Source of the DNA: Buxus sempervirens
Taxonomy: Eukaryota > Streptophyta > Magnoliopsida > Buxales > Buxaceae
DNA: 64,000 nucleotides
Direction: 5' to 3'
NCBI GenBank assembly: GCA_947561395.2
Contig: OX387184.1
Location: forward strand, 3,224,001 to 3,288,000
How positions within the stretch are numbered: the first letter of the stretch is position 1; the number at the start of each line of letters is the position of its first letter. This document shows, piece by piece, positions 11-50,966 of this stretch. A program made the translations under genes and the position numbers. The notes beneath the pieces are model-generated. The model ran no database searches. It was given only the letters and a program-made list of their open reading frames with translations, and was not told the origin of the DNA.

Positions 11-1320
11 GAAACATTCTCTGAACAATCACCTGATGCTGCAATTATCACAATAGTGCTTGAAAACATAAGGCTATTGTACATTGGAAAGTAAACAGAG
101 CAACATGATACTAAGAAAATGCAATGTGAGGATCAGATGAACATGGACCTACCACGCAGTTGAATAAGTGACTGCAGATTTAAAGACTGATGAAAATATT
201 TGGAGTTGGTGGAATGTTTACTCAAACCAAAAGGTGCCTGTGGATTGTGTATCATTATGGCAACCTAAGGTTAGGTTAGGCATGTAAAAGCATCACAACC
301 CAACACAATTACTAGATGTTCATATTCTCTTGTCTTTATTTGTTATTATAATCTTTGTTAAACAGTAGACATATGCCATTTATATCTCTGAAAATAACCT
401 TGTTGGTTTTGTGGCAGTGACATGATTCAAACTACTTGATGCTCAAAGAAGAATCTGGCTTCTTATCATCTAGCTTTGCCATAAAATCTGTTCATGTGCT
501 CACATGTTTATATGTAAAGAATAATTACATAATTCTGTTTTGCAATCAACCTATAAGTCTTTATCAAAATTGCATCTAATAGAAACTTATTTTCTGTTAA
601 ACTTTAGGTCATTATCAAAGACCGAAATAGTGACTGAGAAGACCAATTTGTCTTTAATTAATAAAATATCTTTGAGGCAGAACATTCAAATATTTGGACG
701 ATGACCCAGTTTTGATGCAACTCAATTTACCCGAACTGGTAAAAATTAATGTGTGCTTGGATCAAGATTGAAGTCAAAGAGACTAATACAAGAAGTGCCT
801 CAGGAAAGATTTGAGAATTCAAGATGAAAGCTAAGAATTTACATTAAAATTCTAGTGAAATTGGAGAGACTTTTTGGTACTCTTCCCAACATTTACAAAA
901 TTAAAAGAATTTCTAAGGCTTCAACAAAATTGTTGAGTTAATGATCTGGCAGACCAGCCATTTTGCTGCTCTAGTTAATTTTCCTCATCCTTTCTGACAA
1001 GTCATTCAAACGAGAAGTGAGATCAATGAATGCATCTTCTTTGCATGGAATTGTAAGACCGCCCATCGGATGATTGAAACCAAATTCTTCCTCAGCACGA
1101 ATCAACATTTCTTGAAATGAAGGATGGTTCAAGTAGGATATTGGGACCACAAATCGCTTCTTACTGCAAAGTGGCCCTTTGGGACAACTGCTGTGGTTGT
1201 AATCGGAGATGATTGATTTCTGGTAAGAAGAGACTGTAGCTTGAAAATCTGCTTAGCTTGAAGTGCTACAGAAGGCAAACGAATACCCATGTCTATCCTT
1301 GGAAAATGAATTGTGATCAC
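11..1320. repeat. Left copy of a ~3 kb-spaced direct duplication (SAUR 3' flank plus SAUR body)
   Basis: This stretch matches 3000-4310 almost base for base at an offset of about 2990. Only scattered substitutions and a few single-base indels are visible in the first 950 bases. The repeat includes the shared 3' flank of a SAUR gene and runs into the coding region on the minus strand. The near identity of non-coding sequence points to a recent duplication, by unequal crossing-over or segmental duplication. The left limit may lie outside the window, because homology is already present from base 11. Confidence 0.9.
971..1290 (-). pseudogene. SAUR pseudogene (19-nt deletion in the SAUR core)
   Basis: The minus strand opens with [20 protein letters not shown] and reaches VPKGHFAV, the start of the SAUR domain. 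It then loses its frame. Compared with the intact copy at 3961-4299, 19 bases are missing between the codons for HFAV and KKRFVVP, near 1163. After the deletion the other frame continues with a normal SAUR body ([14 protein letters not shown], then the [12 protein letters not shown] region) to a stop at 971-973. Without the deletion it would be a roughly 112-aa SAUR. A TATA-like box at 1388-1395 and the upstream GGTCCC-type block near 1457 are retained, so it may still be transcribed. The deletion is visible directly; loss of function is inferred. Confidence 0.88.
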
Positions 1321-2720: not shown

Positions 2721-2999
2721 GACAATCCTGGAAACAAATTGCAGTGATGATCGCAAATGGATTTGATAGGACCATGAATGTGAACTTAGCAGAGAAGAGA
2801 ATTTAGTGTATATTTGGACTTGGAGGCTTTCAGTGTTATTTTTTTTTGCAGAGAAAAAATTGCCATATCTACTAAACTTTCAAATGTGACCATATGTAGG
2901 TGAATATTGGCTGTTTGGTCTGTTGAGGAATATACCTCACTCAGGATCACAAGGTTTTGCCATTGTAATTCACCACATCTCTCACTAGTTTTCTTATCT

Positions 3000-4310
3000 G
3001 AAACATTCTCTGAACAATCACCTGATGCTGCAATTATCACAATAGTGCTTGAAAACATAAGGCTATTGTACATTGGAAATTAAACAGAGCAACATGATAC
3101 TAAGAAAATGCAATGTGAGGATCAGATGAACATGGACCTACCATGCAGTTGAATAAGTGACTGCAGATTTAAAGACTGATGAAAATATTTGGAGTTGGTG
3201 GAATGTTTACTCAAACCAAAAGGTGCCTGTGGATTGTGTATCATTATGGCAACCTAAGGTTAGGTTAGGCATGTAAAAGCATCACAGCCCAACACAATTA
3301 CTAGCTGTTCATATTCTTTTGTCTTTATTTGTTATTATAATATTTGTGAAACAGTAGACATATGCCATTTATATCTCTGAAAATAACCTTGTTGGTTTTG
3401 TGGCAGTGACATGATTCAAACTACTTGATGCTCAAAGAAGAATCTGGCTTCTTATCATCTAGTTTTGCCATAAAATCTGTTCATGTGCTCACATGTTTAT
3501 ATGTAAAGAATAATTACATGATTCTGATTTGCATTCAACCTACAAGTTTTTACCAAAATTGCATCTAATAGAAACTTATTTTCTGTTAAACTTTAGGTCA
3601 TTATCAAAGACAGAAATAGTGACTCAGAAGACCAATTTGTCTTTCATTAATAAAATTTCTTGGAGGCAGAACGTTCAAATATTTGGACGATGACCCAGTT
3701 TTGATGCAACTCAATTTACCCGAACTGGTAAAAATTAATGTGTGCTTGGATCAAGATTGAAGTCAAAAGAGACTAATACAAGAAGTGCCGCAAGAGAGAT
3801 TTGAGAATTCAAGATGAAAGCTAAGAATTTACATCAAAATTCTAGTGAAATTGGAGAGACTTTTTGGTACTCTTCCCAACATCTACAAAATTAAAAGAAT
3901 TTCAAAGGCTTCAACAAAATTGTTGAGTTAATGATCTAGCAGGCCAGCCATTTTGCTGCTCTAGTTAATTTTCCTCATCCTTTCTGACAAGTCATTCAAA
4001 CGAGAAGTGAGATCAATGAATGCATCTTCTTTGCATGGAATTGTAAGACCGCCCATCGGATGATTGAAACCGAACTCTTCCTCAGCACGGATTAGCAGGT
4101 CTTGGAATGAAGGATGGTTCAAGTAGGATATAGGGACAACAAATCGCTTCTTCCGGTCCTCTCCAACATAAACTGCAAAGTGGCCTTTTGGGACATCTGG
4201 TGTGGTTGCTACTGAAGATAGCTGATTTCTTCTTAGAAGAGATTGTAGCTTGTGAATGTGCTTAGCATGGAGAGCCAGAGAAGGCAAGCGGATACCCATG
4301 TTGATCGAAC
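3000..4310. repeat. Right copy of the ~3 kb-spaced direct duplication
   Basis: Partner of 11-1320. It contains the intact SAUR 3961-4299 and about 950 bases of 3' flank. The copies differ by a few percent or less in non-coding sequence, judged by eye. Confidence 0.9.
3961..4299 (-). CDS. SAUR family auxin-responsive protein (tandem cluster)
   Basis: Single-exon gene encoding 112 aa. The start is the ATG at 4299 giving [20 protein letters not shown], the usual N terminus of this SAUR clade; upstream in-frame codons lack an ATG. The SAUR domain covers about residues 38-100, with [29 protein letters not shown], the [13 protein letters not shown] block and [16 protein letters not shown]. The C-terminal tail ([11 protein letters not shown]) is longer than in the plus-strand copies because the shared reading frame stops later. 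Family knowledge: small auxin-induced proteins that inhibit PP2C.D phosphatases and promote acid growth. A TATA-like box lies at 4426-4433 and the shared upstream block near 4499-4542. It is divergent to the SAUR at 6946. Confidence 0.93.
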
Positions 4311-4425
4311 CTTGAAAAGTAAACGGTGATTGCAAATTAGTGATAAGTGACAGGAAAGGAACTGAAAGCCTTGGCAGTGAAGAGGGTGTGGTGAAGTTTG
4401 AGTTCCAAGGCTGGCTGTGGCTATG

Positions 4426-6823: not shown

Positions 6824-6945
6824 CACAGACATAGCCAGCCTTGCAACTCAAGCTTCACCACAACCCCGCTCGACTCCTAAGGCTTTCATTTCCTTTACCA
6901 GTCACTCATTTGGGATCACCACTTGCATTTCAAGGTTTGATCGAC

Positions 6946-7260
6946 ATGGGTTTCCACCTACCTTCTGTGGTTCTTCATGTTAAGAGCATTCTCAAACTGC
7001 AATCTCTTTTAAGAAGAAATCATCTATCTTCAGTAGCAACAGCAGCAGATGTTCCCAAAGGTCACTTTGCAGTTTACGTTGGAGAGGATCAGAAGAAGCG
7101 ATTTGTGGTACCAATATCCTACTTGAACCATCCTTCATTCCAAGACTTGCTAATCCGTGCTGAGGAAGAGTTCGGCTTCAGTCATCCAATGGGTGGTCTT
7201 AGAATTCCATGCAAAGAAGATGCATTCATTGATCTCACTTCTCGTTTGAGTTACTTGTGA
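6946..7260 (+). CDS. SAUR family auxin-responsive protein (tandem cluster)
   Basis: Single-exon gene for 104 aa, from ATG 6946 (MGFHLPSVVLHVKSILKLQS) to TGA 7258-7260. The SAUR domain is complete: [60 protein letters not shown], ending in DLTSRLSYL. It differs from the 3961 copy mainly in the N-terminal 35 residues and in stopping earlier. TATAAATA lies 123 bases upstream of the ATG. Its 3' flank is a reverse-oriented relative of the flank of the minus-strand SAURs, so gene and flank were copied as one unit. Expected role: auxin-induced growth regulator acting on PP2C.D phosphatases. Confidence 0.94.
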   Translation: MGFHLPSVVLHVKSILKLQSLLRRNHLSSVATAADVPKGHFAVYVGEDQKKRFVVPISYLNHPSFQDLLIRAEEEFGFSHPMGGLRIPCKEDAFIDLTSRLSYL

Positions 7261-8020
7261 GAAGGGATTAAGAAGATTAACTAGAGCTGAAAAATGGTGG
7301 CCCGTTAGATCCATTCTATACAATTTTTGTGGGAGAATCCCCTTAACTAATTCTTTCGGTTTTGTAAATGAATGGGAAGAGTATCAAAACTTCTCTCCCA
7401 TTGCAATAGCATTAATTAGTGGAAATTCTTAGTTTTAATCTTCTAATTCTTCTTATGTCTCTGCTATCTCAGTTACTATTTACTCTCTGACTTCAATCAT
7501 CACCCAAGTACGCGTACATTAAGATTTACAGTTCTGTTGCAAGCTAAAAATCAGGCGCAAAAACTGGGTCAACCATCCAAATGTTTGAATTTTTCTGTCT
7601 CCAAGAAATAGTATGAATTCTAGATTCATTGGGCTCTTCTTAGTCATTATGCAAATATGATAATGGCTTAGAATTCAGAGAAGCATATAATTTGTACCCA
7701 GATTTGATCATGTTTACAAGATTTTATGACACAATTGGATAATAAGGAAAGCCAAATCATTCTTCAAGCACGAAGCAGTTGCTTAAATATATTAGAAATT
7801 TCTCGACTGCCACAAAATAAGGAATATTGTTTTCAGAGATATCTGTAGCATTTGCCTATTATTTTACAAATATAATAAATAACAATCCAAAATAAAGAAG
7901 ATGAACAGCTAGGAATTGTGTGGGAGAATGATGCTTTTTGAAGGCCTAAACCTAGCCTTCGATTCTCACCAGACACCTTTCAGTTTGAGTAAACGCTCGA
8001 CCAACTCCGTCTATATTGTC
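7261..8020. repeat. Inverted, older copy of the SAUR 3' flank
   Basis: Read in reverse complement, 7530-8010 aligns with 960-180 and with 3950-3170: for example AAACTGGGTCA...CCAAAT near 7561, the AACAGCTAGGAATTGTGTTG-like stretch near 7905, and the GAGTAAAC...CCAACTCC block near 7985. Identity is clearly lower than between the two direct copies. No gene is present. Confidence 0.7.
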
Positions 8021-9183: not shown

Positions 9184-9498
9184 ATGGGTATTCGTTTGCC
9201 TTCTATTCTTCTTCATGCAAAAAATATTTTCAGACCAAATCCTCGTCTGACCAAAAATCTGTTATCTCTAGTTGCAACCACAGCAGATGTCCCTAAAGGC
9301 CACTTTGCAGTTTATGTTGGCGAGGAACAGAAGAAGCGATTTGTGGTCCCATTGTCCTACCTGAACCATCCTTCATTCCAAGACTTGCTAATTTGTGCTG
9401 AGGAAGAATTTGGTTTCAGTCATCCAATGGGTGGTCTCACAATTCCATGCAAAGAAGCTGCATTCATCGATCTCACTTCTCGTTTAAGTGACTTGTGA
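9184..9498 (+). CDS. SAUR family auxin-responsive protein (tandem cluster)
   Basis: Single-exon gene for 104 aa from ATG 9184 ([20 protein letters not shown]). The SAUR domain is intact: [60 protein letters not shown], ending DLTSRLSDL. It lies in the same orientation 1.9 kb downstream of the 6946 gene. The first 80 bases of 3' flank (ATGGCTGGCCTGTTAAATCC near 9528) match that neighbour, so the pair arose by tandem duplication. The N-terminal linker (about residues 17-37) is the most diverged part, as usual for SAURs. Expected role as for the other cluster members. Confidence 0.94.
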
Positions 9499-10330
9499 GA
9501 GAGAAAGATTAACGAGAGCAGAAAAAATGGCTGGCCTGTTAAATCCAGTCTGTACAATTTTGAAAAGAGAGTCGCTTCTAATCCTTGTAAATTCTCACTT
9601 TGTAAATGACTGGGCAGAGTATTGTAAAATCTCTCCTTTTACTGCATCAATTTAGTAGAATTTTCACCTTTTCATCTTTCAATTCTAAGTTAATAACAGT
9701 TCTAGTGGCTCATCTGAGGACTCTAATCAGGATTCAGGCTCGTTTAAATTTAACTATGTTTACAAAGCCACATCTTGAAAAATATAAAACATTTACATCA
9801 TGTCTTACACATGATAGATGCCTTCCTCATAGTATCATAACCACCATGTTGGTCACATTCTTTGAGAGCCTTGTGAAAACAATTCCAAAGTCATCATCCC
9901 TGAAAAGTGTTGATATCTATCCCATAATGCTTGGTTTTTTCAGTCTTTAGTGGAATGTTCAACCAGATAAATATTTTTTACATTTTGCCTTCAAAAGAAT
10001 TTGAGTTCTAGACAAATTCATCTTGTTGAGATATTCATGCTGTACAATTTTGGTTTTTGACTTACAATCCCTCTCACCTAATTTTTTAGTTCCTATAATC
10101 CTATCTGCAAGGAAGTTAAAAAAACATTCTGTTAGGTTTCATTTTGCAGGGGACTGCACTCACCAATTGTCTAATATTTCCTTTTGTCCTTTTACTGTAA
10201 TCATAACTTATTCAACTCCTTATGACTGCCCAGTATACTGTCATACAAGACTCATTCATGCTATTAATAATTTGGATCTGTTTTGCCCTTTTCTTCTCAT
10301 TTGAGAAGCAGTAGTTGTCAATTGTCATAT
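9499..10330. other. Intergenic, no gene recognised
   Basis: The first 130 bases are SAUR 3' flank. The rest is AT-rich, with open frames of up to 114 codons on the plus strand that show no family motif. Confidence 0.35.
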
Positions 10331-11409: not shown

Positions 11410-11718
11410 CTATGAAGAATTTAAGTGAGAAGTGATATAAATGAAGCTGTCAATGTCGCATGGAATTGTGATACCACCCATTGGATGATGAAAATCAAAT
11501 TCTTTCTCAGCCAAACTCAGTAACTCTTGGAACGAAGGATGGCTTAAGTAAGATACTGGAATAACAAACCGCTTCTTCTGTGTCTCTCCCACATACACGG
11601 CAAAGTGGCCCTTTGGGACGTCGGCCGTGGTGGAAGAAACCGACGGGCTTCTTGTCATTGAAAGAGTTCTTCGAAGAATCTGTTTTGCCTGAGCCATCCC
11701 AGGCAAGCCGATACCCAT
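11410..11718 (-). CDS. SAUR family auxin-responsive protein (diverged cluster member)
   Basis: Single-exon gene for 102 aa, ATG at 11718 (MGIGLPGMAQAKQILRRTLS), stop at 11410-11412. SAUR core: [60 protein letters not shown], ending IYITSHLNSS. It is the most diverged intact member: SHPSF replaces NHPSF, EKEFDFHH replaces EEEFGFSH, and IPCDIDSF replaces [17 protein letters not shown] box at 11815-11822 lies about 100 bases upstream on the minus strand. The GGTCCC-type block of the other members is not evident here, so its regulation may differ. Confidence 0.92.
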   Translation of the reverse strand: MGIGLPGMAQAKQILRRTLSMTRSPSVSSTTADVPKGHFAVYVGETQKKRFVIPVSYLSHPSFQELLSLAEKEFDFHHPMGGITIPCDIDSFIYITSHLNSS

Positions 11719-11904
11719 TTTTGATTCGAAGAACAACGACAGAAACTATGTCTCAAGGAGAGTCACAAAATTTATCAGGTCCAAACATGAGTGATTTTCT
11801 TCCAGTAATGTAGTATATATAGCCTGAGTGGAAGCAAAATCGTTTCAAAGCTCGTTAAGCATATCACATAAGTTACGTTCCAAGTTTTGTTAAAAGCCCA
11901 ACAG

Positions 11905-12023
11905 CATAAGAAGAGGGACCTCAACCTTAAAACCTACGCGTTTTATTGTTTTTTCTTGCGTTTTATTGTTTTTTCTTCCTTTTTTGATTTGTAGGAACTA
12001 AATCAAATGGTTCACAGTTTTCA
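11905..12023. repeat. Direct repeat, copy 1 (partner at 12229-12330)
   Basis: Shares CTCAACCTTAAAACCTA, GCGTTTTATT, and TTTTTTGATTTGTAGGAACT followed by AAATCAAAT with 12229-12330. Copy 1 also has an internal short duplication of the GCGTTTTATTGTTTTTTCTT segment. The pair flanks a 200-base spacer just left of the KRP inverted repeat. Confidence 0.75.
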
Positions 12024-12228
12024 CAATCAAAGACTTTTGACTTTTGGCATACATCAGGAGCACCAATTCGGCCCAAGATACAAGGGAAACAGCACCATGT
12101 GCCAAACCAGAACCATGAAGTTCACCAACCAAAATCTAGAAAAAATTAATGGAGTAAGCTCCCCAAACCAAAGGCAGGGACTCTATAAGCTATTATTATC
12201 AACAATGTAACAGCCTTAAAACCTAGGA

Positions 12229-12330
12229 ACTAAGAGGAGGGGTCTCAACCTTAAAACCTAGGCGTTTTATTTTCTTTTTCTTCCTTTTTTGATTTGTAGG
12301 AACTAAATCAAATCGTTTCACAATTTTCAC
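12229..12330. repeat. Direct repeat, copy 2, abutting the KRP inverted repeat
   Basis: Partner of 11905-12023. It ends where the left arm of the KRP inverted repeat begins (about 12329), so its end may mark a rearrangement breakpoint. Confidence 0.7.
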
Positions 12331-12394
12331 AAAAAACGCCTCGATTTCTTTCCTATATATTGAGTGGAGATTGTGTAGCGTGATTTGTACAAAC

Positions 12395-12676
12395 ATGGGG
12401 AAGTGTATGAGAAAAAGCAAAGAGATGAGTGAAATTGCAATAATGGAGGTTGCTCCGGTTGGTGTCAGGACGAGAGCCAGAACCCAAGCCTTGGCCTCCT
12501 CTAGCGCAAGCATAGGCAAGAGAAGGAAGATTGGTTCAGTAGAGATGGAGTCGCCTTCGTCGTTCCCTCGTCACCAAAGCGATCATCGTGTCGTTGTTAC
12601 ACCAGAGAAACCCACTTGGCCCGCGACGTATGGGAATTGTGGTAACGATGGCAAGTGGTCAATGCTCGAGCCCTGA
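12395..12676 (+). pseudogene. KRP/ICK CDK-inhibitor gene fragment (left arm)
   Basis: From ATG 12395 it encodes MGKCMRKSKEMSEIAIMEVA then PVGVRTRARTQALASSSAS, carrying the two N-terminal hallmarks of plant Kip-related proteins (MGKxxRKSK and VRTRART). It continues through KRRKIGSVEMESPSSFP and TPEKPTWPATYGNC. A two-base loss relative to the right arm near 12643 then shifts the frame, and it ends in WSMLEP* at 12676. The C-terminal cyclin/CDK-binding motif that defines KRP function is absent. It differs from the right arm at four of about 80 codons before the shift. I read it as a truncated duplicate, not a working inhibitor. Confidence 0.8.
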
Positions 12677-12770
12677 AAAAGGTTCAAACCGATGTACAAA
12701 ATTATAAAAACACACACACAATATTTGAACAGACAGTTTAAACGAAACATAATTTAACTTTCAATTTCAC

Positions 12771-13100
12771 CTCCAGATTCACGGATCTCAACATCTTACT
12801 GGCGAGCTCGATCGAACCGTTGCTCGAGCATTGACCACCTGCCATCGGTTGACTACAATTCCCAAACGTCGCGGGCCAAGTGGGTTTCTCTGGTGTAACA
12901 ACGACACGATGATCGCTTTGGTGACGAGGGAACGACGAAGGCGACTCCATCTCTACTGAACCAATCTTCCTTCTCTTGCCTGTGCTTGCGCTAGAGGAGG
13001 CGAAGGCTTGGGTTCTGGCTCTCGTCCTGACACCAACCGGAGCAACCTCCATTACTGCAATTTCACTCATCTCTTTGCTTTTTCTCATACACTTCCCCAT
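12771..13100 (-). pseudogene. KRP: KRP/ICK CDK-inhibitor first exon (right arm), rest of gene not found
   Basis: From ATG 13100 the minus strand encodes MGKCMRKSKEMSEIAVMEVA, PVGVRTRARTQAFASSSAST, GKRRKIGSVEMESPSSFP, then TPEKPTWPATFGNC, CSSNGSIELASKMLRSVNLE. The open frame runs on to 12738. A donor-like GAG|GTGAAA at 12771/12770 sits where KRP first exons commonly end, giving 110 codons in phase 0. No exon with the conserved C-terminal CDK/cyclin-binding motif (EIEEFF...EKYNFDPV type) is visible downstream, where the sequence instead enters the left arm. It is either an orphan exon or the 5' end of a gene broken by the inverted duplication. Family role: nuclear inhibitor of CDKA-CYCD complexes. 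Confidence 0.75.
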
Positions 13101-13171
13101 GTTTGTACAAATCACGCTACACAATCTCCACTCAATATATAGGAAAGAAATCGATCACAGGCGTTTTTTGT

Positions 13172-14055
13172 CCCACCTCCTTCTCTCTCGCGCCCAAATC
13201 CCATCTAATTCGCGCAATCACAATCTCCACTCCACCGCTCCCCTCTCACTCAAATCTCCATCGATCATGTTGCTAAAAAAAAACCCTTCAAAAGAATCTG
13301 GGTGATTTTCGAATATTCTCTCTCTCTCTGCTAATGGATCATGTTTATACTGGTTTCGGACTGCTGCATACTCCTGAAAAGAGTATCTTATTTTTTGATC
13401 TAAATATCTATTTTCTTCTTCATCTTTGTGCAGGATTAAAGGGCCGGATTACTGGTTTACAAAATCGAAAACAGTGAAATTCTTCTCGACTTTTTCTGAA
13501 TTTATTTCCATATATTTTTTTCCTCTTTTATGTCGAGTGCTATTCTACTTGCTATACTTGGCATACATGGAGGAAATTTTGCCTGTCTTTCCTTTCCTTG
13601 AACATAATCTTGTCCCGAGTTATCTAAATGGAATGTTCTTAATTCACAACCGAACAATTATTTTGATTATAATCCCAGAAAGCATATCCCTTTGTCTGAT
13701 CAGTCTAGAAGGAATGCTGGACACTTCGTTGCTTTAGGCGTGTGATTCTCCTACTCAAACTGAATCCTTTCCTACTTGTCACGCATGGAGCCCTAACTAC
13801 ATACTGACATTTAGGATTTTATCATTCCAACTTTCTTTTGCCATTTATTGCTTGTATGGATCCTTCTATAAGGACACCCTTTTCTTACAATCAGTAACAA
13901 TTAGTCACCATGTGAACATCTGCTAACGCTTCCAGTTCTTGATGCACTGGCATGTAATGAGGTGCATATTCTTCTTCATTTGGATGCTATTTCCTTGACA
14001 AAAATTTTTCCATGAAAGCATAGTTGCTTTTTTTTCACCTTTAGGATTGGATATT
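13172..14055. other. Intergenic, no gene recognised
   Basis: 13172-13300 is C-rich on the plus strand and resembles a gene leader (Y-rich, CT runs), possibly the original KRP upstream region. The rest is AT-rich with no supported gene. Confidence 0.3.
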
Positions 14056-14290
14056 GTTAACATGGTATCAGAGCGGGAGGTCTTGTGTTCAACTCGCGGG
14101 GGCAATTTTGCCTTGGCATTTGCTTGTGTACAGGATGTTCATACCCTGTGTTTGTCCTCCCTATATATGTTCCCGTGCGATATCGCCCGTGCGGGGGAAT
14201 ATTGAAATATTGTGTTTGGGCCCTTTGATATAAATTGCTGCGCCTTCACCTATAAGCTTAAGCTTTTAGGTATAACGGTTGTTAACAAGT
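14056..14290 (+). repeat. tRNA-iMet-like (PBS-type) repeat, SINE/TRIM or LTR fossil
   Basis: Starts at TTAACATGGTATCAGAGCGG, the motif complementary to the 3' end of initiator tRNA-Met that serves as primer-binding site in many plant LTR elements. GTCTTGTGTTCAACTCGC, which resembles a tRNA T-arm, follows. The unit ends near 14286 with TATAACGGTTGTTAACA, echoing the sequence just before the motif. I treat it as a degraded non-coding retroelement relic; class uncertain. Confidence 0.45.
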
Positions 14291-16747: not shown

Positions 16748-19379
16748 ATGCCTCAAACTTCTTCTGGTAGAAAGCATGGCGGAGAACAGTCGGATGGAGC
16801 TGGTTCTGTCCCAAAATCTCAACGGGCTAAAATGGCGAGAGGTGCCGAAGACAGCGACAAAAAGGTAATATCCACTTCCTTTTTGAGTTTGAACGGTATC
16901 CTATTTTAAATTATTTCGGAAGAGATAGGCACAGACCTGAAACAGAATTTTGAACCCTTACAGCAGAGGAGTATGACGCCCTATTTTGAGATTTAAGAGG
17001 GGTTGCTTATTCGTGCAGGGTTCGAGCAAGAAACTCAAAGACGTGGAAATTAGTGTTCCGATAGCATATGGAACTATCTCATTCTGGCTTGGTAAGAAGG
17101 CAAGCGAGTAAGTGTTTTTCCGGTTAATGTGTTCTCGATTCGCCTTCCACAAGTTCGAATTATTACTGTAATACTATCTTTTTGTGTTTCCGCTGTCCTT
17201 CTCCACAAATTTAGGTATCATTCACATAAGTGGACTGTCTATGTTCGTGGGGCAACAAATGAAGATCTGGGTGTGGTGGTTAAGCGCGCAGTGTTCCAGT
17301 TACATCCCAGTTTTAATAATCCCACGAGGGTTGTAGAGTCACCCCCATTTGAGTTATCCGAATCTGGTTGGGGTGAATTTGAAATTGCCATTACCCTTTA
17401 TTTTCACAGCGATGTTTGTGATAAGCAGTTGGACTTGTGAGTTGTTACTTCCGTTTTCATTTTTTATCTTGTCAGTCGATCTAGATTGAAATGAATAGCC
17501 ATGTTGAAATATATCTGAACAATTTACAGGTATCATCATCTGAAGCTATACCCTGAGGATGAATCTGGTCCTCAGTCGACTAAGAAACCTGTTGTCGTAG
17601 AGTCCTATGATGAGATTGTTTTTCCGGAGCCTTCGGAGGCTTTCTATGCTCGTGTACAGAATCATCCAGCTGTAATAGTACCCAGGCTACCTGCTGGTTT
17701 TAGCCTACCTCCACCTGGTGAGGTTTCCTTCACGTTCTATTTTATGGATTTTTGTTGTACACATTCTTTAGAGGGATAAATTTGTCTTATCCTTGTGTAG
17801 TACCAATTGAAAATGCCAATGACAAGAAGAGGGGGGACACTCAAGATCATCCACTATGTCAATGGTTTATGAATTTCTCAGAGGCCGATGAGCTATTGAA
17901 ACTTGCAGCAGCTCGTCAAAAGGTCAGAATGAGCCCTCCAATATATATATTTTAAAATATAATCATTATTCAACATCAATCAAGTACTTGCACTTTAGGT
18001 TGACATATGAATATTATTATGCACGATCAGATAGGCTGGATTCAAATAGACGGTGCCCTTTTTGAAGTGCATAGGCATGAGAAATTTGAATGGGAAGCCA
18101 ACACCATCCACTGATTCATTTTTTATGTCTGTATACAGTAAAACAAAGAATCTGACTGTTGTTACATCCATGAAAGTGAGAAACATGTAGCGAGCAAAAA
18201 ATATCATCTAGTGGTTCACCTGTTGAGCACTTTTGCCCATACAGGGCTGTAGATTGAGCCAATTAATGGGCATACACACAAGAGAACATCAAACCTTTGA
18301 AACCAGTGAGCATGTGTACTTAAATCTACAGGTTTAGCTACCCTAGCTGGAATGGTTGCATTGTTCTCAATTGGATATTGGTAATAAAACCATCAGGATG
18401 TACTTGATCAATTGTTGGCAAAGCAAACGGCTATCTTTGGATTCTTAGAGCTTGCAGTTTGATTTCCAGATGCCCAGCAATCTGAATTTTGTTGATATAT
18501 ACCATTACACATTTTAAAAATAGTATGGTAACAAATGTGATTAGTATTATTCCAAGATGGGTCTCTAATGGGCATTATGTTAATGTTAACTCTTTCTGAA
18601 CCTGTTCAAATAGCTTACACTTTTTATATTATGGAACAAAAGACAGATGTCCTTTTTAGGTTGCTTTCAACCCCACTTGGAAAAGCCTAGCATGAACATA
18701 CTAAATCCATTTAGAGCACTAGAAAGAGTTTTGACAACAAACGGAAAGTTGGCAAATCAGATGTTTAGGACCATCCTTCATTTGATTTTTTTATAGGTCT
18801 TTGTGAATCCCTTTGAGTATCAAGAGAGAATTTGTTAGGCTCGATGGTTAAATTTGTCTGTTTAAAGTTCTTTCTGGCTTGGACTTTGTGAACCTCCTAT
18901 TAATGCCCGGTCATTCTTGCATCATCTTTAATATCTAAGCTGTTTGAGTTGATGTCATTTGAGCTATGAAATGATAAATTTCTTGATGGAATGTTCATGT
19001 CGCTCATTGCTGTGGAAAGTTGCTCCTGATGATATATTATGCCATGTGGTAGGTAGGACTTTCAACTGCCAGGTTTGAGCTAAATGAAATGTCCAATATT
19101 GTCTTGGATGTGAGGTTCTTGCATTTCATTCCTTGTTTTTTCGGTTTCTAATGATATCGGCCAATATATGTGGCAGTGGCTTTGGGCTTCTCCTTGTTAA
19201 CTTTATAAATATGATTTGATAAATGTTCACTGTTATGTTTGTAGAATGACAGTTGATTCATCAACTTTTTGACAGTTTATATATGGTGTCAGGTGCAAGC
19301 GCACATTGTTAAGCTCCGAAGACAGCTGAGTGTCATAGATGGACAGCCTCAACAATCGAAACTCACATCTGGCCAATGA
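16748..19379 (+). CDS. YAF9: YEATS-domain protein YAF9/GAS41 (SWR1/NuA4 subunit)
   Basis: Six exons: 16748-16864, 17019-17107, 17215-17436, 17530-17717, 17801-17922 and 19293-19379. All introns have GT-AG ends and compatible phases, giving 274 aa. The YEATS domain covers about residues 50-165: [77 protein letters not shown] and [13 protein letters not shown]. The HSHKW and GWGEFE segments build the acyl-lysine reader pocket in GAS41/YAF9. The C terminus ([20 protein letters not shown], then [10 protein letters not shown]) is the expected coiled coil. Length is close to Arabidopsis YAF9 proteins. Known role: H2A.Z deposition by SWR1 and H4 acetylation by NuA4 in the nucleus. Intron 5 is long (about 1370 bases) with no gene inside. 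Confidence 0.95.
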
Positions 19380-20269
19380 TTATAGACGAACCTAGTATAT
19401 TTTTGGAATATTTTTTTTTCAGGTGTTCCCTTGTGGAGTTATGGAGACGCTTTATAAGGAAGATAATTGATTTTCAAGGGCCTACTGGATTTTATTCCCT
19501 ATTCTCACCCACATTTGTTTCATTGTGTCCATTCTTTTCGGAAGAGTCTATGGTTGGATACTCAAAAACTTTGTTTTTCATCCCACGAGATGCTAAATTT
19601 GTCAACTTCTAGGTGGGATCTCAGGGTTGGTGACCATACCGAGCTGCATGGAATTTTGATAAGTGGATGGAGAACTAACAGAGAGTTTTAACGATGAGGG
19701 TGGAAGATTATTGACACATTTGATATAGGATGGAAGATTTTCAACCATTGTGGATATTGTCATATCTGATAGATCCTGGAAACATAGGTAGACTGTGCCT
19801 GCTGTTTAATAGTTTCCACTGGGAGGCTGTTCTTGGCGAAACATTTGTATGTATGGATCAAGAGTTAGTATTGTACTACTAAGTTTTTTGTATTTAATCA
19901 TTCCCTGTCACTAGTTTTTCTATTTGAAGATTAATTAGAAGAATCAGAAGTGTGTGATTGAGTGTCATAAGCATTTTGAATACTACGATTGTGCTGAGTT
20001 CCTGGGCTACAACTTTGACAACTTGTAGCTTCCTTACCGTATGCATTATTCCTCTTCATAAAAAAAACCATAGCCCTGCGAAATCCTTGGCCACCCTATA
20101 CGCAATCTTGATATAAGTTCCCGCTCTGATCTATGATCATGTGGTTTTTAGACCACATGGAGAAAATGACTATGATGTTTGCATAAAAAAAAATTTTTCT
20201 ACGTGGGATGGTGATAAAGCTTTGTGATGTTCATATCTAGTACATGAATTTGAAATCTACCTTCGGCCT
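19380..20269. other. YAF9 3' flank and intergenic
   Basis: About 500 bases after the stop are probably 3' untranslated and flanking sequence. No further gene is seen. Confidence 0.35.
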
Positions 20270-20656
20270 GTTACGGTCACTCTGCCAGCCCGAAGTGTTG
20301 CTAAGGTTTTTACGAAAGCATTTCCTCTAGAGCCAAAATGCGGTGGTTTCTTAAAACCACCTACTGGGATGGGGTTTGGATGCATGGGGTCCCCTCTGAC
20401 ATGGCCATCCATCCGTGCTTTTCACGCTAGCTCCAATGAATGGCAAGAGGTAAAACGCTCTTGGTTTTTACTGTTATTGTCACTCTGCCAGCCTGAAGTG
20501 TTGCTAAGGCTTTTAGGAAAACATTTCCTCTAGAGCCAAAATCCGATGAATCCGTAAAACCACCTATTAAGATGGGGTTTGGATGCGTGGGGTTCCCTCC
20601 TGACATGGGCATCCATCCGTACTTTTCACGCCAGCACCAAATGAATGGCAACAGGT
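20270..20656. repeat. Tandem pair of a dispersed repeat (family A)
   Basis: Two units, 20270-20452 and 20473-20656, share CACTCTGCCAGCC, TTTCCTCTAGAGCCAAAAT, CCACCTA, GATGGGGTTTGGATGC and GGCATCCATCCGT. Related fragments occur at 21506-21640 (inverted), 43925-44005 (inverted), 45430-45585 (direct) and, more weakly, 41785-41822. Element class is unknown; no coding capacity is visible. Confidence 0.8.
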
Positions 20657-21505: not shown

Positions 21506-21640
21506 AGTGTTTCACGTGGTGCTACTCAGTGGTGCCGGTGTGAAACATACCGATGGATGCCCATGTCAAGAGGGGGTCCCACACATCCAACCTCCATCCT
21601 AGTCGGTGGTTTTACGGAACCACGGGATTTTGGCCCGGAA
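21506..21640. repeat. Family A repeat, inverted copy
   Basis: The reverse complement aligns with 20473-20656: GGATGGATGCCCATGTCA, CACACATCCAACCTCCATC and GGTGGTTTTACGGAACCAC. Confidence 0.75.
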
Positions 21641-24041: not shown

Positions 24042-24178
24042 CCCTCCATCGCCCTTCAGTCCTGTCCACCACCTTTCACCTCTCCTTCCACACACACACA
24101 CTCTCTCTCTCTCTCTTATCTCAACCTTTGTTTCTTCTTGTTTCTTACCACACAAGTCCTAGCAAACCCAGAAAAAAA

Positions 24179-24493
24179 ATGGCTATCAGGAAATCAAATA
24201 AACTACCTCAAACAGCAGTTCTGAAGCAAATTCTCAAGAGATGCTCCAGCTTAGGAAAGAAACAGCACTACGACGAAGAAGGCCTTCCGGTTGACGTACC
24301 GAAAGGTCACTTCGTGGTCTATGTTGGGGAAAACAGAAGCAGATACATCGTTCCCATCTCCTTTTTAACTCATCCGGAGTTCCAAAGCCTGCTTCAAAGA
24401 GCAGAAGAGGAGTTCGGTTTCGATCATGACATGGGTCTCACAATTCCTTGCGAGGAAGTTGTTTTCCGCTCTCTAACATCGATGCTCAGATGA
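24179..24493 (+). CDS. SAUR50: SAUR50-type small auxin-up RNA protein
   Basis: Single-exon gene for 104 aa from ATG 24179. [20 protein letters not shown] followed by RCSSLGKKQ is the signature of the SAUR50/SAUR12-type clade. The core reads [40 protein letters not shown] and [20 protein letters not shown], ending FRSLTSMLR. It lacks the MGG motif of the 1-12 kb cluster and belongs to a different SAUR clade. The leader and the 3' region carry CT microsatellites (24553-24576). Members of this clade promote growth of cotyledons and hypocotyls through PP2C.D inhibition. The assignment to the clade is firm; the exact orthologue among its paralogues is not. Confidence 0.95.
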
Positions 24494-25679: not shown

Positions 25680-26498
25680 GGCTCCGTTTAGTAACGTTTT
25701 TGCTTTCTTGCTTTCAAAAACAAGAAATCAAAAAAGTAATTTTCTGCTTTTTAGGAGATTTTTTGTTGAAGCAAAGCTGTTTGGTAAATTTTTGCTTTGC
25801 TGCTAAGAAGCAAAAAAGCATGTTTGGTAATCGGATTCAACCCACCAACCCGATTAAAATGTTTTATTTTTTAATTATAAAAAAATCACCAATAGAAAAT
25901 AACATGAATTAGTGATACAATTTAGGGTTAAACGGGTCATTATCGAGTTAAACGGGTCATTATCGGGTTAAATGGATCATTATTGGGTTAAGCGGGTCAT
26001 TATCAGGTTAAATGAGTCATTATCAGGTTAAACGGGTGATTATCATGTTAAACAGACCATCATTGTATTAAACGGGTCATTATTGGGTTGAACGAATCAT
26101 TATCAGGTTAAGCGGGTCATTATCAAGTTAAACGAGTCATTATCAGGCTAGATTCGAATTGACCTGAATACGAATGAGTTACTAAATCCTCAATCCGAAG
26201 CCGATCCAACTATTACACGGGTCAACCTGAACCCATTTATTCGGGTTGGATTGGACATGATGGGTCAATCTTTTCCCGGTCTAGTTTTGTGTCGAGGGTT
26301 TTAGAAGCAAGAAAGTAAATTTATGGTTAAAGTGATAAGCAACATTTCTATGCTTCTTTTGAAAGCAAAGAAATTGTTTTTAGCTTCTTATAAATTGCTT
26401 CGTGTGTGCATAACCAAACAGCACTTTTGCTTTCAAAAACAATTTTTTGCTTTCAAAAGCAAAAAAAACACTTCTGAAAAGCGTTACCAAATGGTACC
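25680..26498. mobile_element. PIF/Harbinger-like MITE with internal minisatellite
   Basis: Flanked by TAA on both sides (25677-25679 and 26499-26501). The left end GGCTCCGTTTAGTAACG mirrors the right end GGTACCATTTGGTAACG (reverse complement), a common Harbinger/Tourist-like terminus. Subterminal TTGCTTTCAAAAACAA-type blocks pair across the element. Its centre is the minisatellite at 25925-26147. Confidence 0.7.
25925..26147. repeat. 20-bp minisatellite, about 11 units
   Basis: The unit GTTAAACGGGTCATTATCAG repeats about 11 times with point variation and no major length change. It lies wholly inside the Harbinger-like element. Confidence 0.9.
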
Positions 26499-31578: not shown

Positions 31579-34500
31579 CTACCGGCTATTCTTTCCCTTC
31601 GACGAGAAGAATCTGCTAAAACCACGTGAATTTTTCTCCAATGTCAGGGCAGAGGAGGCAAAGGAATTTGATTTGGTGGGATTGGGTTTGGGATGCTTGG
31701 AGTTACTTGGGGATCTCCCTAGCACATTTGCATCAGTGTCAGAGGGACTGAATGGAGAACCATACAGATCCGAGGGAGAGTCACTACCCACTCCGCGCTC
31801 ATTAGACAAAGCGGCAGGGCACATCTCGGCTTGATCAAAATCCATCGAACCTTGCAAACTTCGTGGGTTTAAGTCTCTAGGACTTGGTTCTTCCATGAAA
31901 GCTTCACCTGTTTGATGCCACTGTCTATCTGAGGAACCCTTCATTCCTGCTGAAGGATGTAAAGCTTTCAACTGCTTACCAAGAATAAATATGGTCTCTT
32001 GACACTCTGCAAGTTTCTCTGCCGCAGCTTTTATCTCTCTCTCCTGCAGCAATTAAAGAGAAAAATTTCAGGTTTACAGATTCTTTCATCAGTATGAGAG
32101 GCATCTTTTAGAAGCACATATTTGTAAATGTGAAAATCACAATAAGCCAACATAGGAAAAAGAACACTAATTTGAGAAGAACTTAAATTTTGATCAAACT
32201 CAAGTACCATCACTGTCCATGCTTTTATTGATCTTCATAAAACCGAAAAAATAAAAATAATGAAAAGAAAGAAAAAGAAGAAAGAAGACATAACAATCAC
32301 AGCAAGAAAGAAAGAAGGAATAGTTGTGAGTTTTGATTCTTAAATCCATATCCTCAAGAGAATCAAAAACAATTTGCACATACAACTTTAATTTTTTGGA
32401 AACACGGGCCGGGTTTCACTACACACCTGTTTGGTCTTGATGTCAACCTCAGCTGATAAGGACAGTAAGCAGCTTTCATTCCTTCACAAAATCAGGATAG
32501 AAAATCATGGCAGAAATAAAAACATCAGACCAAAGCTAAAAATATAAAGATATCTGATAGACGAAGTTGACTAGCAATATTATATGAATACACTACTAAT
32601 TAGGTTAAATCAAGACTAATGATTTACTTTATATGGTCAAGGTTTTAAAGTCTCAAATGAAAATGCAACATATCAACTGGGTTGGTTGTGGAGACCATCA
32701 GAATAATGTGACAACTAAATCCAAACTCACATAGGAGTTTCAAATGACACAAGGATCTAGCCAACTAAAACCTGGTCACGATCAATAAAGTTATTAGAGA
32801 AGGCAGTTTAATGCTAACCTTTGCACCTTTTCTTCAAGATCCTTACATCTGGCCAAAGCATCCTGATGATTCCGTTTCTCATCTTGCAGTTCATTACCTA
32901 GAGTTTCTGTTTTTTCTCGCAAAAGAATCACTTCAGCTTCAAACTCTTGTGCACGTGTTTCAAGCGACTTGTAAGACTCTGCCATACATTTCAACTGTGT
33001 CTCAGCCAAGCTGTTTGACTTTTGACAAGATGCCAATTCTGATTTTAATTCTAACAAAAGCTGCTCTGTTTCCTGTAAGTGAGACTCTGTGTTTTTCAGA
33101 TTTTCAGTGCATCTTGCGAGATCCATTGCTGTTTTATCTTTCTCTAATTTCAGCTGTTCAACCTCCTCTGATAAGCATTTGCAAGATGCGGCATTTAAAT
33201 CATAGCCCAGGCTTATATTTACTTCTTGAGGAACCTCAGGATGAGAAGAGGATCGAGAAATGTGGGAGCAAGAATTAGAAAATCTTTCTCTCAATGAGTC
33301 TTCATGAATGACCTTATTCTCTAGTAAAGTTACCTTGTCTATGCAATCAGAAATGTTGGTTTCTGCCTCATTGCCCTTGTAACCAAGAACACTAAAGCTG
33401 AGTTCACTGGCATTTGAAAAAACACAAGAAAGATCAAGAATAAAATTGACCAAGCTCATCTGGTTGTGTAAAACTTTATTAACAGAAGAAGAGAACTCCT
33501 CAAATTTTTGAATCAATCCATGTCCGTAAGGAGAAGTGTCCTGGACTGCCATAGCTTTCTTGCCTATTGATATGACAAAGTCATGGATCAGAGAAATTGC
33601 AGCTGCCAATTCTTGATTGACAATATGCTCGGAATCTGTATTTGTTTTACAATCTTGTTTCAAGATGGTCAGACTCTCTGCAGTTTCCCCCTTCTCTTGA
33701 GGACAAGACTGCTGATTACATGTAACATCAGAAGAATGTGTTTCCACAAAGTTGCAAGTTACAGATTGCTGGGAAAGAGTACCCTGTGCATCCTGGAATA
33801 CACGCTTGATGTCCTCCAAAATATTCAACACATCACCGTCCTTAGATTTGGCCTCAAGTACCATAGAAATTCTGCTTCGGAGCTCTGACAAGGGCACTTG
33901 ATCTGTTTCATATTCAGGCTGCGCAGCTGACAATACAACATCCGCAGAAATCTGATCAGATTTTGCATTCAACTCTGGTTGATCTGCTGACTGGACAGCG
34001 CTATTCTTTGAGACATCAACTAAAATTTTGTTTTCAATGTACTCAAATCCTTTGTTGTTTATGCTGTCAGGAACAGAGATGGTTCCATTGGAGTCAGTTG
34101 ATAAACAGGCCAATCTCTCCATCTCAAGAAAGTCATCCATAAGCTCCAGATGATTTGTATTGTCAGCCTTGTTAGAATTATTAATGCTCCTTTCCTTCTT
34201 GAAGTGAGAGAGTTCAGATATCAAAGCTGTAGCCCAGGACTCAGCACAACTCCCTTCCTCATCAATTCCATCTTCAGACATGGAGGTCAAGCTCGGGGGA
34301 TTACTTGCATTTTGACTCAGGGAGCGTTCAATCGGGATATCAATAGTTGGTTTCAGAGAACTCCTCTGCTGATTCAGATTCTGCACTTGTGCTTCTAAGC
34401 TCCGAAGTTTGCTATTTGTTTTAGCACACAGGTTTCTTGAAGCCTGCAATTCACTGTTACGTTTTGCCAAAGCTTCTTTCAGCATCTTTGTCTCTTCTTC

Positions 34501-36317
34501 CATGGCCAGTAAACGTGCAGTGAGAAACTCAGTCTCCTTGTGACATTGCTGTGTATTGTCAATAGAAAATTCAGGCAAAGGAGCTAAGTGTGGGCTAGAG
34601 CTTTTAACAGGAGACTTGCGTAGTCGAGGTTCAGCATAATCCCGGCCTAAATTCTCAACTTCCAGCCTCATTTGGGCCAATGCAGCTGGTCCAGGCAACT
34701 TTTTTCGAACAAGTCCCCGTAATCTCTGGCTCTCTGCTTCTAATTTAGCAATTTTCTTGACGCCCTCAAGATGCTGCTTGTTTGCTACTTCTGCAGATCT
34801 TATACTCATGTTCTTTTCTTCATTTCGGATTTCAAGCTCCTTAGATATTACATGGAGCTCATATTTAAGTGAATTTGTTTCCCTTTCAAATGACTGAATA
34901 TTGCCCTTCAAAATTTCAATCTCGGTCTCAGCTTGAGATTTCTCTTCACTAATCTTCATTAGCATATCAGAATGCTCTTGTAATGACCTTGAAAGTGCAG
35001 AATTTTCAGCTGATGACCTGAGAAGTTCTTGGTCTAAGTCAACTATCTTTGACTCTAGCTCCAGCTTAATTTTGTCCCATTGCTTGGTTTTTGTAAGAAC
35101 AACATCATGCAATTTTTGATCATGTTCTTCCTTCACATTTCTTATCTGCCTCATGCACTCTTTAAGAGCACCATCCAGATGGGAAGCTCGATCTTCAGCA
35201 GTAAGCTTCAGAAGTGTGACAGATTCAAATTGATGCTTTAATGCCAAAGCCTCTGCTTCAGCCTTCTCCCAACCTGCAATGAACATAAGTTATAATTGAT
35301 ATGCAAAATCTGATCAATTAGGCCTCAGAAATGTGGTAACTGCTCTTTCCTTTTCTTATCTTTTCTAGACTTTAAAGACCTAACTGCATATGAGAAAATA
35401 ATTTCTTAAAAACTGCTCAATGATAAAGGACATGCCATAGTAAAAATATTTCCATCGCTCATAAATGATACTTTCACATAGTTAAAGCAAACAGTGAAGC
35501 CACACCTGAGACGGCTTCTTCAGCTACTTTTGCATGTTGTTTAACCAAGTTGTCTTTAGTAGTCATCTCCGAATGGGCGAAAGATAGCTTTTCATTCAAT
35601 TCCTTAATTTGATCCTCCATTGTTTTAACTTGATCCTCCAACCCAGTTAGATGTGAATATGTCTCCATGGAAATTTGGACATAGTTTACTTTTTTGTGTT
35701 CCTGGCCACAGGAATAAGGAAATTCACAAAGAAAACAATTAACCAGCTAGAGCAACGTGCAGAATCAAAAGCCAAGAAAGCAAGATGATAAGTAGTGATA
35801 GTGGCTAACAATGGTAGCATCCTCCATGCAGCATACCAAAGAGGGGAAAAAAAAAGGACGAACTTTAATCGTTTCATCTGTATATCACTAAAAGGAATCA
35901 AGATTAAAAAACATTGTCCATTCAGAGTTTGCATTTACTGCTTCTGCTTCCTCAAGGATAGAGTCTCCTTAAATACGTCACTGCCTTCTGTTCTAAAGTA
36001 GAAAGCTAATTTGATTATGAATTTTATAACTCAAACAAGAAGAGAAACATTGTAATTTCAAAATTTAGGCTTGTAAATGGATTTGCAACATGCGTAGAGT
36101 ATGCCCAACTTTTATGTTCTACCAAGTTAAGAACTATGATCAAAGGAGAATGCAATCTAGTGAAACTCTGTATAAGAGTCACATAACATCTGCTGTAATT
36201 AAGAATTTAGATTAACAAACAAAATTTCCTTTGGCTTCTTCAGAAGCATTTTGAAAGGTGAAAGATTTCTTTGATCAGTATGGCTTGTGACCATGTTCAG
36301 AAGGACTTTGGAAGCAT

Positions 36318-43924: not shown

Positions 43925-44005
43925 CATAGGTTGTCCACATCCGGAAATGCATCCTAGCCTGTGGTTTCATTGAACCACCGGATTTTGGCTCTAGAAAAAA
44001 TGCTC
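43925..44005. repeat. Family A repeat fragment, inverted
   Basis: CATCCGGAAATGCATCC, TGTGGTTTCATTGAACCACC and GGATTTTGGCTCTAGAAAA match the reverse complement of 20270-20656. Confidence 0.65.
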
Positions 44006-45429
44006 ACCACCTTAAAGAAAAAGGTTCCAACTCATAAAACTGCCAACTCCTTAATGTGATCCATACCATATATAATATACCATCTAAAGCAAATATTTTA
44101 ATTGGAGATGGCATCAGACAAGCTGGCAATTGAACCTCTCTTTAGAATGCGGAAATTTTGGAACTTCTCTGTCAATCCCTTTTATCTCTTTTTCTTTATT
44201 GGAGTTTATTTATGTATTCGGTATACGTACTGTTGAATAATATAACATATTCAAATGATACCCACCCGGTTTTATCGAGATTAAAAGGTTTAGAGATGAT
44301 GTGAGCTGAGGCCTCCTTAATTTGTGGGTCGTCGTCGTGGGTGAGAAGCATGAATGATTGCTACCTCAATTTCATACAGTCAATAATTACAAAAACATAC
44401 ATGCTTCCTGTTTTATACGTGTTTACTTTTGCTTTTCTAGCTTGCTTTGCTTCCATGGTAAGAAAGCAGTTCACGAGGATGGAGAGAAGAATATAACTAT
44501 AAATGCAGAGGTCCCACAGCCAAGCCAAAACCACCTACCTATCTTTTCTTCTCCGTTCGTTGCTGCAGGTCGAATCCGTTGCACACGACATATATCGTCT
44601 TTCACTTCGAAAGTGCTTTCTGATTTTCTGAGCTTCATTCAAGTGGGGTTTAATTAGCCTCATAAGATGTGATTTGATTAAGCAGTCATTAACAAATGCT
44701 AAAGGGACGTCCCTCCAACCAACACAAGCACTTTTTAGGTTGCAGCTTCTCCATTTTTTGCCACCTGCCAGGTGACTGGGGGACCCAAATTAAAGCAGAA
44801 TAAGCTGCTTTTAAGCATGAGCCTAGGTCCTAATGGTAAGCTAGTGCTTTCCCAGTTGATGAATCGCCTTTAAAACAGAATATATATATATAGTGATTTA
44901 GTACCTTCTTTTACCTTTGGATAGATATACATAAGAATGGGCTAGGGCTAGGGCTAGCTATATAGGCTTGATGCTCCCTTATAGATCATGCAAGCTATGC
45001 TTCATATAGGGTTAGACGAGAAGGGTAGGTTAGCTCTATATTGTCAGGGATGGAGCCTACCGGCTTTAATTGATTTGTTCTTAGCATCAGATCAATGTTA
45101 CGGATGCCTGGGTCGTGACAAACACGGCATGTTCTCTTAGCGTTTATGTTTGAAATACATAAGTTGTACATTTGTACTCTATAGATGACTCTTCATACAT
45201 ATCAAGCAAGAAGGCAAAACACAACAAGCAAATGAGTCATCCTTTACATTTACCTAACCTTTTAACCATGTAAGTAATTTTAGGAAACCTAGGTAGCTAC
45301 AAAAGTGTCCAAGGTTCATTGCATTGCTGTCGTACATGTTAAATCACAATTGTGTTGGCAATGATCATCATTCCCAAGTAGAAATTAAATCCCCAAATTT
45401 TTGTTCCTCGTAACTTGAATAAATAGAAA
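44006..45429. other. Intergenic, no gene recognised
   Basis: AT-rich. A 99-codon open frame at 44358-44657 has no family motif. GGGCTA triplicate at about 44940. Confidence 0.35.
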
Positions 45430-45585
45430 GCATTTCCTCTAGAACTAAAATCCGGTGGTTCCGTAAAACCATTGGTTGGGATGGAGTTTGGATGTGCGGG
45501 GCTCTCTCTTGACGCGGGCATCCATCCGTGCGTTGCATACTAGCATCACTGAGTGGTACCAAGTGAAACGCTTTTATCATTAGAT
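45430..45585. repeat. Family A repeat, direct copy
   Basis: CATTTCCTCTAGAACTAAAA, TCCGGTGGTTCCGTAAAACC, GGGATGGAGTTTGGATG and GGGCATCCATCCGTGC match 20473-20656 in order. Confidence 0.75.
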
Positions 45586-50495: not shown

Positions 50496-50966
50496 TTACC
50501 AGATCGATTTCTTGGCAACCCCGTGAAGGAGAGGCCGGGACTCGGCCCGAAAATCCAGATTGCTTCTGACGCCCCCGCGACAGTGCCTCTGGAAATCCTC
50601 GAGGTTGACGAGGCGAGACGAGTTGTTAGACTCGTACCGGGAAAGGAACCGGAGAATTTCTTCGAAGACGGACTCGTCGCAGGGAATCGCTAGGGGGCCA
50701 TGGTTGGCGAAGCCGTACTCTTCCTCGGCTTGGACGAGCAGCTTCTTGAAGACCGGGTGGTTCAGGTACGCCATCCGCACAACGAATCTCCGGCAGTTGG
50801 TGCCCACAGAGATCGCCACATGCCCGGCGGGAACATCGGAGGGGACTCGACCGGCTCCGGCCGAGATACGAGCCTCCAATGCGGCTTTGCTGCGCCACCG
50901 CCGAAGCATTTGGCGGAGTTTCACAATGTACCGGATCTTGCTACACTTTCCGATCCCGGTTGGCAT
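50496..50966 (-). CDS. Long SAUR protein (SAUR52/53-like clade)
   Basis: Single-exon gene for 156 aa, ATG at 50966, TAA at 50496-50498. The N terminus MPTGIGKCSKIRYIVKLRQM followed by LRRWRSKAA is typical of the SAUR49/52/53 clade. The core is VPSDVPAGHVAISVGTNCRR, FVVRMAYLNHPVFKKLLVQA and EEEYGFANHGPLAIPCDESV, then FEEILRFLSRYE. A conserved extension (LEDFQRHCRGG...ESRPLLHGVAKKSIW) follows. Codon use is much more GC-rich than in the 1-12 kb SAURs and the surrounding DNA. A TTTATAAA box at 51113-51120 lies about 150 bases upstream on the minus strand. The nearest intact gene on the minus-strand downstream side is the FPP gene. Expected role: growth-related SAUR; this clade is less studied. 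Confidence 0.94.
   Translation of the reverse strand: MPTGIGKCSKIRYIVKLRQMLRRWRSKAALEARISAGAGRVPSDVPAGHVAISVGTNCRRFVVRMAYLNHPVFKKLLVQAEEEYGFANHGPLAIPCDESVFEEILRFLSRYESNNSSRLVNLEDFQRHCRGGVRSNLDFRAESRPLLHGVAKKSIW

Follow-up and report, generated by a model that had tools for sequence, protein, structure and literature searches.

Facing copies of a KRP3-like gene fragment in Buxus sempervirens, a candidate hairpin-RNA locus

In this stretch of Buxus sempervirens DNA, two copies of the beginning of a gene resembling the KRP family of CDK inhibitors face each other across a short spacer, and the question is whether such an arrangement serves as a source of small RNAs directed at the parental gene or is only what a rearrangement left behind. 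The most likely reading is that of a young pseudogenic inverted duplication, which would act as a source of hairpin siRNAs against its parental KRP if it is transcribed. All positions refer to the window, by which we mean the whole 64-kb stretch of DNA that was analyzed.

Setting, architecture, and origin of the inverted repeat

By its gene content, the window is plant nuclear DNA. It contains SAUR genes that match the Pfam family Auxin_inducible (for example at 11410–11736 on the minus strand, 24128–24493 on the plus strand, and 50496–50966 on the minus strand), a YEATS gene with coding parts between 16748 and 19379 on the plus strand, a gene for a long FPP coiled-coil protein (open frame 32794–35286, minus strand), and, near the right end, an RBFA match that falls below the Pfam cut-off; a tRNA scan found none. 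Several repeats are present as well. The SAUR cluster includes a tandem duplication (10–1297 and 2999–4306, with a period of approximately 2.99 kb) whose blocks are 99%, 97%, and 80% alike, and one SAUR copy at about 958–1304 (minus strand), which has no frame of at least 80 aa in the ORF list, may be broken. The SAUR genes at 3948–4343, 6902–7297, and 9184–9508 lie in opposite orientations and form long inverted pairs (83–87% over 325–396 nt), a second inverted-repeat landscape within the window. An array at 25887–26170 is built of 20-base tandem units (10 overlapping 104-nt registers, nine of them at 66–85% to the reference), and related 60–130-nt repeats found in both orientations at 20268–20639, 21506–21634, 43945–44004, and 45426–45572 perhaps represent a small mobile element. 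The segment 14024–14260 is perhaps a retroelement remnant, as it contains TGGTATCAGAGC, which is similar to the primer site for tRNA-Met in plant LTR elements.

The inverted repeat lies between the SAUR gene at 11410–11736 and the YEATS gene, and consists of a left arm (12329–12671, plus strand, 343 nt), a right arm (12822–13171, minus strand, 350 nt), and a spacer of 150 nt (12672–12821) that the first-pass annotation had put at 152 bases. Its description of an inverted duplication with facing, near-identical arms holds, as 337 of the 350 columns in the arm alignment are identical and the remainder comprise six substitutions and seven gap columns (three gaps). The arms pair by blastn at 96.0% over 350 (E = 7.6e-163), and the high identity that had been noted comes to 98.3% across 343 aligned bases. 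Between 11700 and 14100 the longest perfect inverted match is 116 nt, compared with at most 20 nt in 200 mononucleotide shuffles of the same stretch and 44 nt in 2.4-kb tiles of the window (one every 600 bases) that are clear of the locus; the inverted repeat at 12329–13171 is therefore not a product of chance. The least probable of the explanations that we weighed is an assembly artifact, in which a chimeric or fold-back read entered the contig. Short palindromes are typical error sites, but a fold-back read would make near-identical arms, whereas those observed differ by six substitutions and three gaps; furthermore, the spacer is asymmetric, and the match ends at both outer arm ends.

Long inverted arms flanking a short middle also look like the terminal repeats of a fold-back transposable element, or of an element such as a Pack-MULE or Helitron that has captured a gene fragment. 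The stretch that adjoins the right arm (13172–13480) could be further foreign sequence, perhaps another captured fragment: it is CT-rich, has by eye the look of a 5'UTR with a possible small intron, and resembles no other part of the window at E 0.01. Nevertheless, a transposable origin has a very slim chance, as simple scans found no target-site duplication of 5–12 bases lying 4 bases or less from the arm ends and, on the plus strand of 11700–14100, no Helitron-like 3' end, and a blastn search of 11700–14100 against the 64-kb window returned no further copies of the arms. The right flank, from 13172 on, was separately considered as the 5' end of the YEATS gene, a proposal that was rejected because the coding region of that gene starts at 16748.

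A short shared sequence at a joint beside a duplicated flank is a mark of replication template switching. Upstream of the SAUR gene, a direct-repeat copy at 11907–12026 (plus strand) recurs at 12231–12332 (plus strand), where it and the left arm, at the outer end of the latter, share the four bases ACAA, and we infer that the left-arm joint arose by such switching. Six differences separate the two flank copies over 101 aligned bases, and six separate the arms over 343 (Fisher p = 0.034, from a gappy poly-T alignment), so the two pairs may not share a single event; they may differ in age, or gene conversion may have kept the arms alike. Taken at face value, the arm divergence of six substitutions in 343 aligned bases (1.75%) would correspond to approximately 0.6–1.25 million years at assumed plant rates of 0.7–1.5e-8 per site per year. 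This age is uncertain, since gene conversion between close inverted arms also preserves likeness and could lower the apparent age, so that of the earlier claim of a young locus the likeness of the arms stands while the date remains loose. Comparison of the right-copy protein with viral and with bacterial/archaeal contigs gave 14 and 84 pattern matches, respectively, none of which was confirmed, and the lack of a relative in these groups is expected for a plant sequence.

KRP-like content and state of the two copies

Each arm carries a leader followed by the start of a KRP-like coding region, with the ATG placed 66 bases from the arm start on the left (12395) and 71 bases on the right (13100), and both translate to MGKCMRKSKEMSEIA[I/V]MEVAPVGVRTRART. 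In a search confined to the window, an Arabidopsis KRP3 query matches both arms with an E of 3.6e-4 and reaches at best 0.10 outside them. The KRP hallmarks named in the first-pass annotation are found in both arms and correspond to two N-terminal motifs of the KRP3-like class, MGKY(L/M)RK, here in the shape MGKxxRK, and GVRTRA. Motifs 2 (MGKYLRK) and 4 (PLGVRTRAKVLALQR) as described for pepper ICK/KRP proteins (PMC13408456) are matched, by hand count, at 5 of 7 positions in the arms for motif 2 and, for motif 4, at 8 of 15 positions in the right arm and 9 of 15 in the left. A query that concatenates five of the pepper motifs gives weak matches to the arms (E = 0.099 and 0.34), and an E of at least 1.6 elsewhere in the window. 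The KRP identity that we propose is of modest strength, combining a modest score against Arabidopsis KRP3 with short motifs.

The Pfam domain of KRP proteins, CDI, is located C-terminally. This CDK/cyclin-binding domain was not found in the window with a six-frame pattern scan or with the KRP3 and pepper-motif queries; the pattern scan yielded two isolated YNF[DE] matches (9553 and 20008), neither with a partner match of the G-R-Y-E-W type. Additionally, the six frames of the window lack the YLQLRSRR motif, and a search of them for TRESTPC returned only a chance-level TRETAPC at 12068–12100. Neither arm matches a Pfam family at E up to 1, and an intact parental KRP was not found within the window. 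As no CDI domain was found in the window, neither arm, as read here, can encode a whole CDK inhibitor, and with CDI, YLQLRSRR, and Pfam matches all not found, the locus, by these scans, holds two copies of the N-terminal part of a KRP3-like gene and nothing more of it. It thus resembles the KRP3-like members of the plant ICK/KRP CDK inhibitors in the N-terminal motifs of its arms but, with neither a CDI domain nor YLQLRSRR detected, would be no working member of that family.

The two copies differ in their state. The open frame of the right copy (12738–13100, minus strand) begins with MGKCMRKSK and is maintained through CSSNGSIELASKMLRSVNLE, crossing an unduplicated end of the KRP-like exon (12771–12821, minus strand) up to AG/GTGAAA, a donor-like site at 12770, after which it runs 10 residues into an intron-like stretch before a stop. 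The left copy, by comparison, is truncated, and two single bases are absent near its inner end, which shifts the frame and leads to a stop at 12674–12676, just beyond the arm; five leader bases are absent as well. At codon 16 the right copy has V, in agreement with Arabidopsis KRP3, and the left copy has I. From the maintained frame and the V on one side, and the frameshift and missing bases on the other, we infer that the right copy is closer to the parent. The earlier label of a "first exon" consequently suits the right copy, which extends to the donor-like end, and not the left arm, which ends before it. Over codons 1–82 (54.7 silent and 191.3 non-silent sites), four codons differ between the arms, all of them changing the amino acid and none silent, a pattern that fits an absence of constraint but is too small in number to test selection.

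These features can be accounted for by an inert pseudogenic palindrome, that is, the scar of a rearrangement that is untranscribed or whose transcripts have no effect. Most pseudogene fragments are probably without function, and we regard this explanation as quite possible, if short of an even chance: the truncation, the one frameshifted copy, and the CDI domain not being found all fit it, as do the exclusively non-silent codon differences, few as they are, and the other duplications nearby, including the one of approximately 2.99 kb, whose most similar blocks are 99% alike. Set against it are the fold, which arms 98.3% alike over 343 aligned bases leave intact, and the precedent that transcribed inverted gene copies are known sources of siRNAs (PMC9636151, PMC7048303). 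Alternatively, the right copy might be translated into a short KRP N-terminal peptide without the CDK-binding part, which would compete with or stabilize partners. Its frame is open from the ATG at 13100 to the donor-like site and for 10 codons more; however, the left copy is frameshifted and the transcript would be locked in a strong hairpin, which leaves a short protein only faintly probable.

The predicted hairpin and its loop

Folding in silico, which had been proposed as a check on the locus, returns a near-perfect long hairpin on either strand. The predicted energy is -695.3 kcal/mol for the plus-strand RNA, against a shuffle mean of -228.8 (sd 6.3), and -707.9 kcal/mol for the minus-strand RNA, against -243.1 (sd 7.1), with 0 of 20 shuffles as good in either case. 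Each strand is predicted to form one stem of approximately 340 bp, in which 207, 204, and 198 windows of 21, 22, and 24 nt, respectively, are perfect duplexes. A stem of approximately 343 bp and a loop of 150 nt lie within the structural limits set for hairpin small-RNA loci in a rice study (stem >100 bp, loop <2 kb), which also required small-RNA reads (PMC2708354). In structural terms, this recent-looking duplication, which as a gene is pseudogenic, has the full shape of a hairpin-siRNA locus.

The first-pass annotation had left the type of locus between siRNA and young miRNA. The long stem and its 198 perfect 24-nt windows fit the production of many siRNAs, and a single miRNA fits worse. 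Such stems are expected to be sources of siRNA populations and not of one precise duplex, nor to be MIRNA precursors. A young MIRNA locus that arose by inverted duplication and gives one dominant miRNA against KRP is accordingly very unlikely, even though the inverted-duplication model of MIRNA origin (PMC3237417) and a hairpin made of target-gene sequence would both suit it, as the stem of approximately 340 bp has only six mismatched columns and three gaps and no Rfam family is matched in the window at the gathering threshold.

Within the loop, a 98-nt intron-like stretch (12673–12770, minus strand, 72% A+T, GTGAAA...TTTTTCAG) has the form GT...CAG on the minus strand, with an acceptor that ends one base from the left arm. 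Its position, following a presumed exon end, is in favor of an intron. On a simple score, however, splice pairs of equal or better quality turn up in 7.4% of dinucleotide shuffles (2000 made) and in 49 of the 852 real stretches of 221 nt that were taken from the window, so the pair is no better than chance at the 5% level and the loop intron is a candidate; on the same counts it was downgraded as proof of a natural intron-spaced hairpin RNA (ihpRNA). Most soybean KRP genes are reported to have three or four exons, which does not settle where intron 1 lies. Splicing of the candidate would leave a loop of 52 nt in place of 150 and give the locus the plan of an ihpRNA construct. Hairpins spaced by an intron are reported to have the highest silencing efficiency in plants (PMC3364983), and these engineered constructs, like the locus described here, place a spacer with an intron or intron-like sequence between inverted gene fragments; the locus differs in being natural and in having an intron that is a candidate.

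Known counterparts and possible function

Loci of this kind are already known, and the closest analogues are the ARR17 copies of poplar and OGI of persimmon. In these published cases partial or inverted gene copies silence the parent (poplar, PMC9636151 and PMC7674411; persimmon, PMC7048303), which bears out the earlier statement on inverted duplications of gene fragments. In Populus euphratica, two inverted segments among partial ARR17 copies are described as forming a hairpin, and exon-1 copies as being under relaxed constraint (PMC9636151); in P. deltoides, FERR-R consists of rearranged pieces in which some promoter and exon 1 occur more than once, and methylation as well as cleavage of FERR has been linked to the siRNAs that it yields (PMC7674411). 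The Buxus locus is like these Y-linked loci in comprising partial copies of a regulatory gene, including exon 1, apart from the intact gene. It differs in that the poplar studies report transcripts, siRNAs, or, at the parent, male-specific methylation, all of which would be hypothetical here, and in that its parent would be a KRP, with no known sex linkage. Persimmon OGI is a Y-encoded pseudogene paralogue with an inverted repeat that represses MeGI via a small RNA (PMC7048303); the pseudogenic copy and the inverted repeat are shared, but the gene family is another, and repression, which is reported for OGI, would be hypothetical for the KRP-like locus. A rice study reports hairpin small RNAs from two pairs of pseudogenes in inverted orientation, at 83% and 96% identity (PMC2708354). 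Like the locus described here, each pair consists of two adjacent inverted fragments of one parent and fits the same structural limits; unlike it, the rice pairs also had to show small-RNA reads. A natural hairpin locus against KRP was not among the matches listed for literature on KRP with hairpin, inverted repeat, or siRNA.

The explanation that we prefer, with a confidence that falls just short of even, is that a KRP3-like fragment was copied head-to-head and that hairpin siRNAs from it act on the parental KRP. A fragment of a KRP3-like CDK-inhibitor gene, comprising the leader, the N-terminal exon, and probably all or the beginning of intron 1, would have come to lie on the minus strand (13171–12673), and its first ~350 bases would then have been copied head-to-head to give the left arm, probably through template switching. 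Read-through RNA of either strand would fold into the ~340-bp stem, and splicing may remove the loop from the minus-strand RNA, much as it removes the intron from an ihpRNA. The stem would be diced by DCL enzymes into siRNAs of 21–24 nt that match the parental KRP over its 5' leader and first exon. Because the arms span the leader and exon 1, both cleavage of the KRP mRNA and methylation directed to the 5' end of the gene are conceivable effects. This sequence of events assumes transcription and dicing, an intact parent, and repression of that parent; we counted against it that the nearest identified gene to the right has its coding start at 16748, 3.6 kb off. Overall, a functioning siRNA source and an inert scar are about equally likely.

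A bolder version, which we consider unlikely, is a natural intron-spliced hairpin gene. Its minus-strand transcript would lose the loop intron of 98 nt and be exported as a compact dsRNA of approximately 340 bp, which would control the dosage of a KRP3-class CDK inhibitor; the gene might also segregate within the species. If true, the plant would have made its own RNAi brake for a protein that is itself a brake on the cell cycle. As it stands, the locus is an ordinary, if neat, inverted duplication of a gene fragment. If it is transcribed, it would in effect be a ready-made RNAi construct targeting a cell-cycle inhibitor, and its presence or absence would offer a natural experiment on how newly formed hairpin loci come to control the genes from which they derive.
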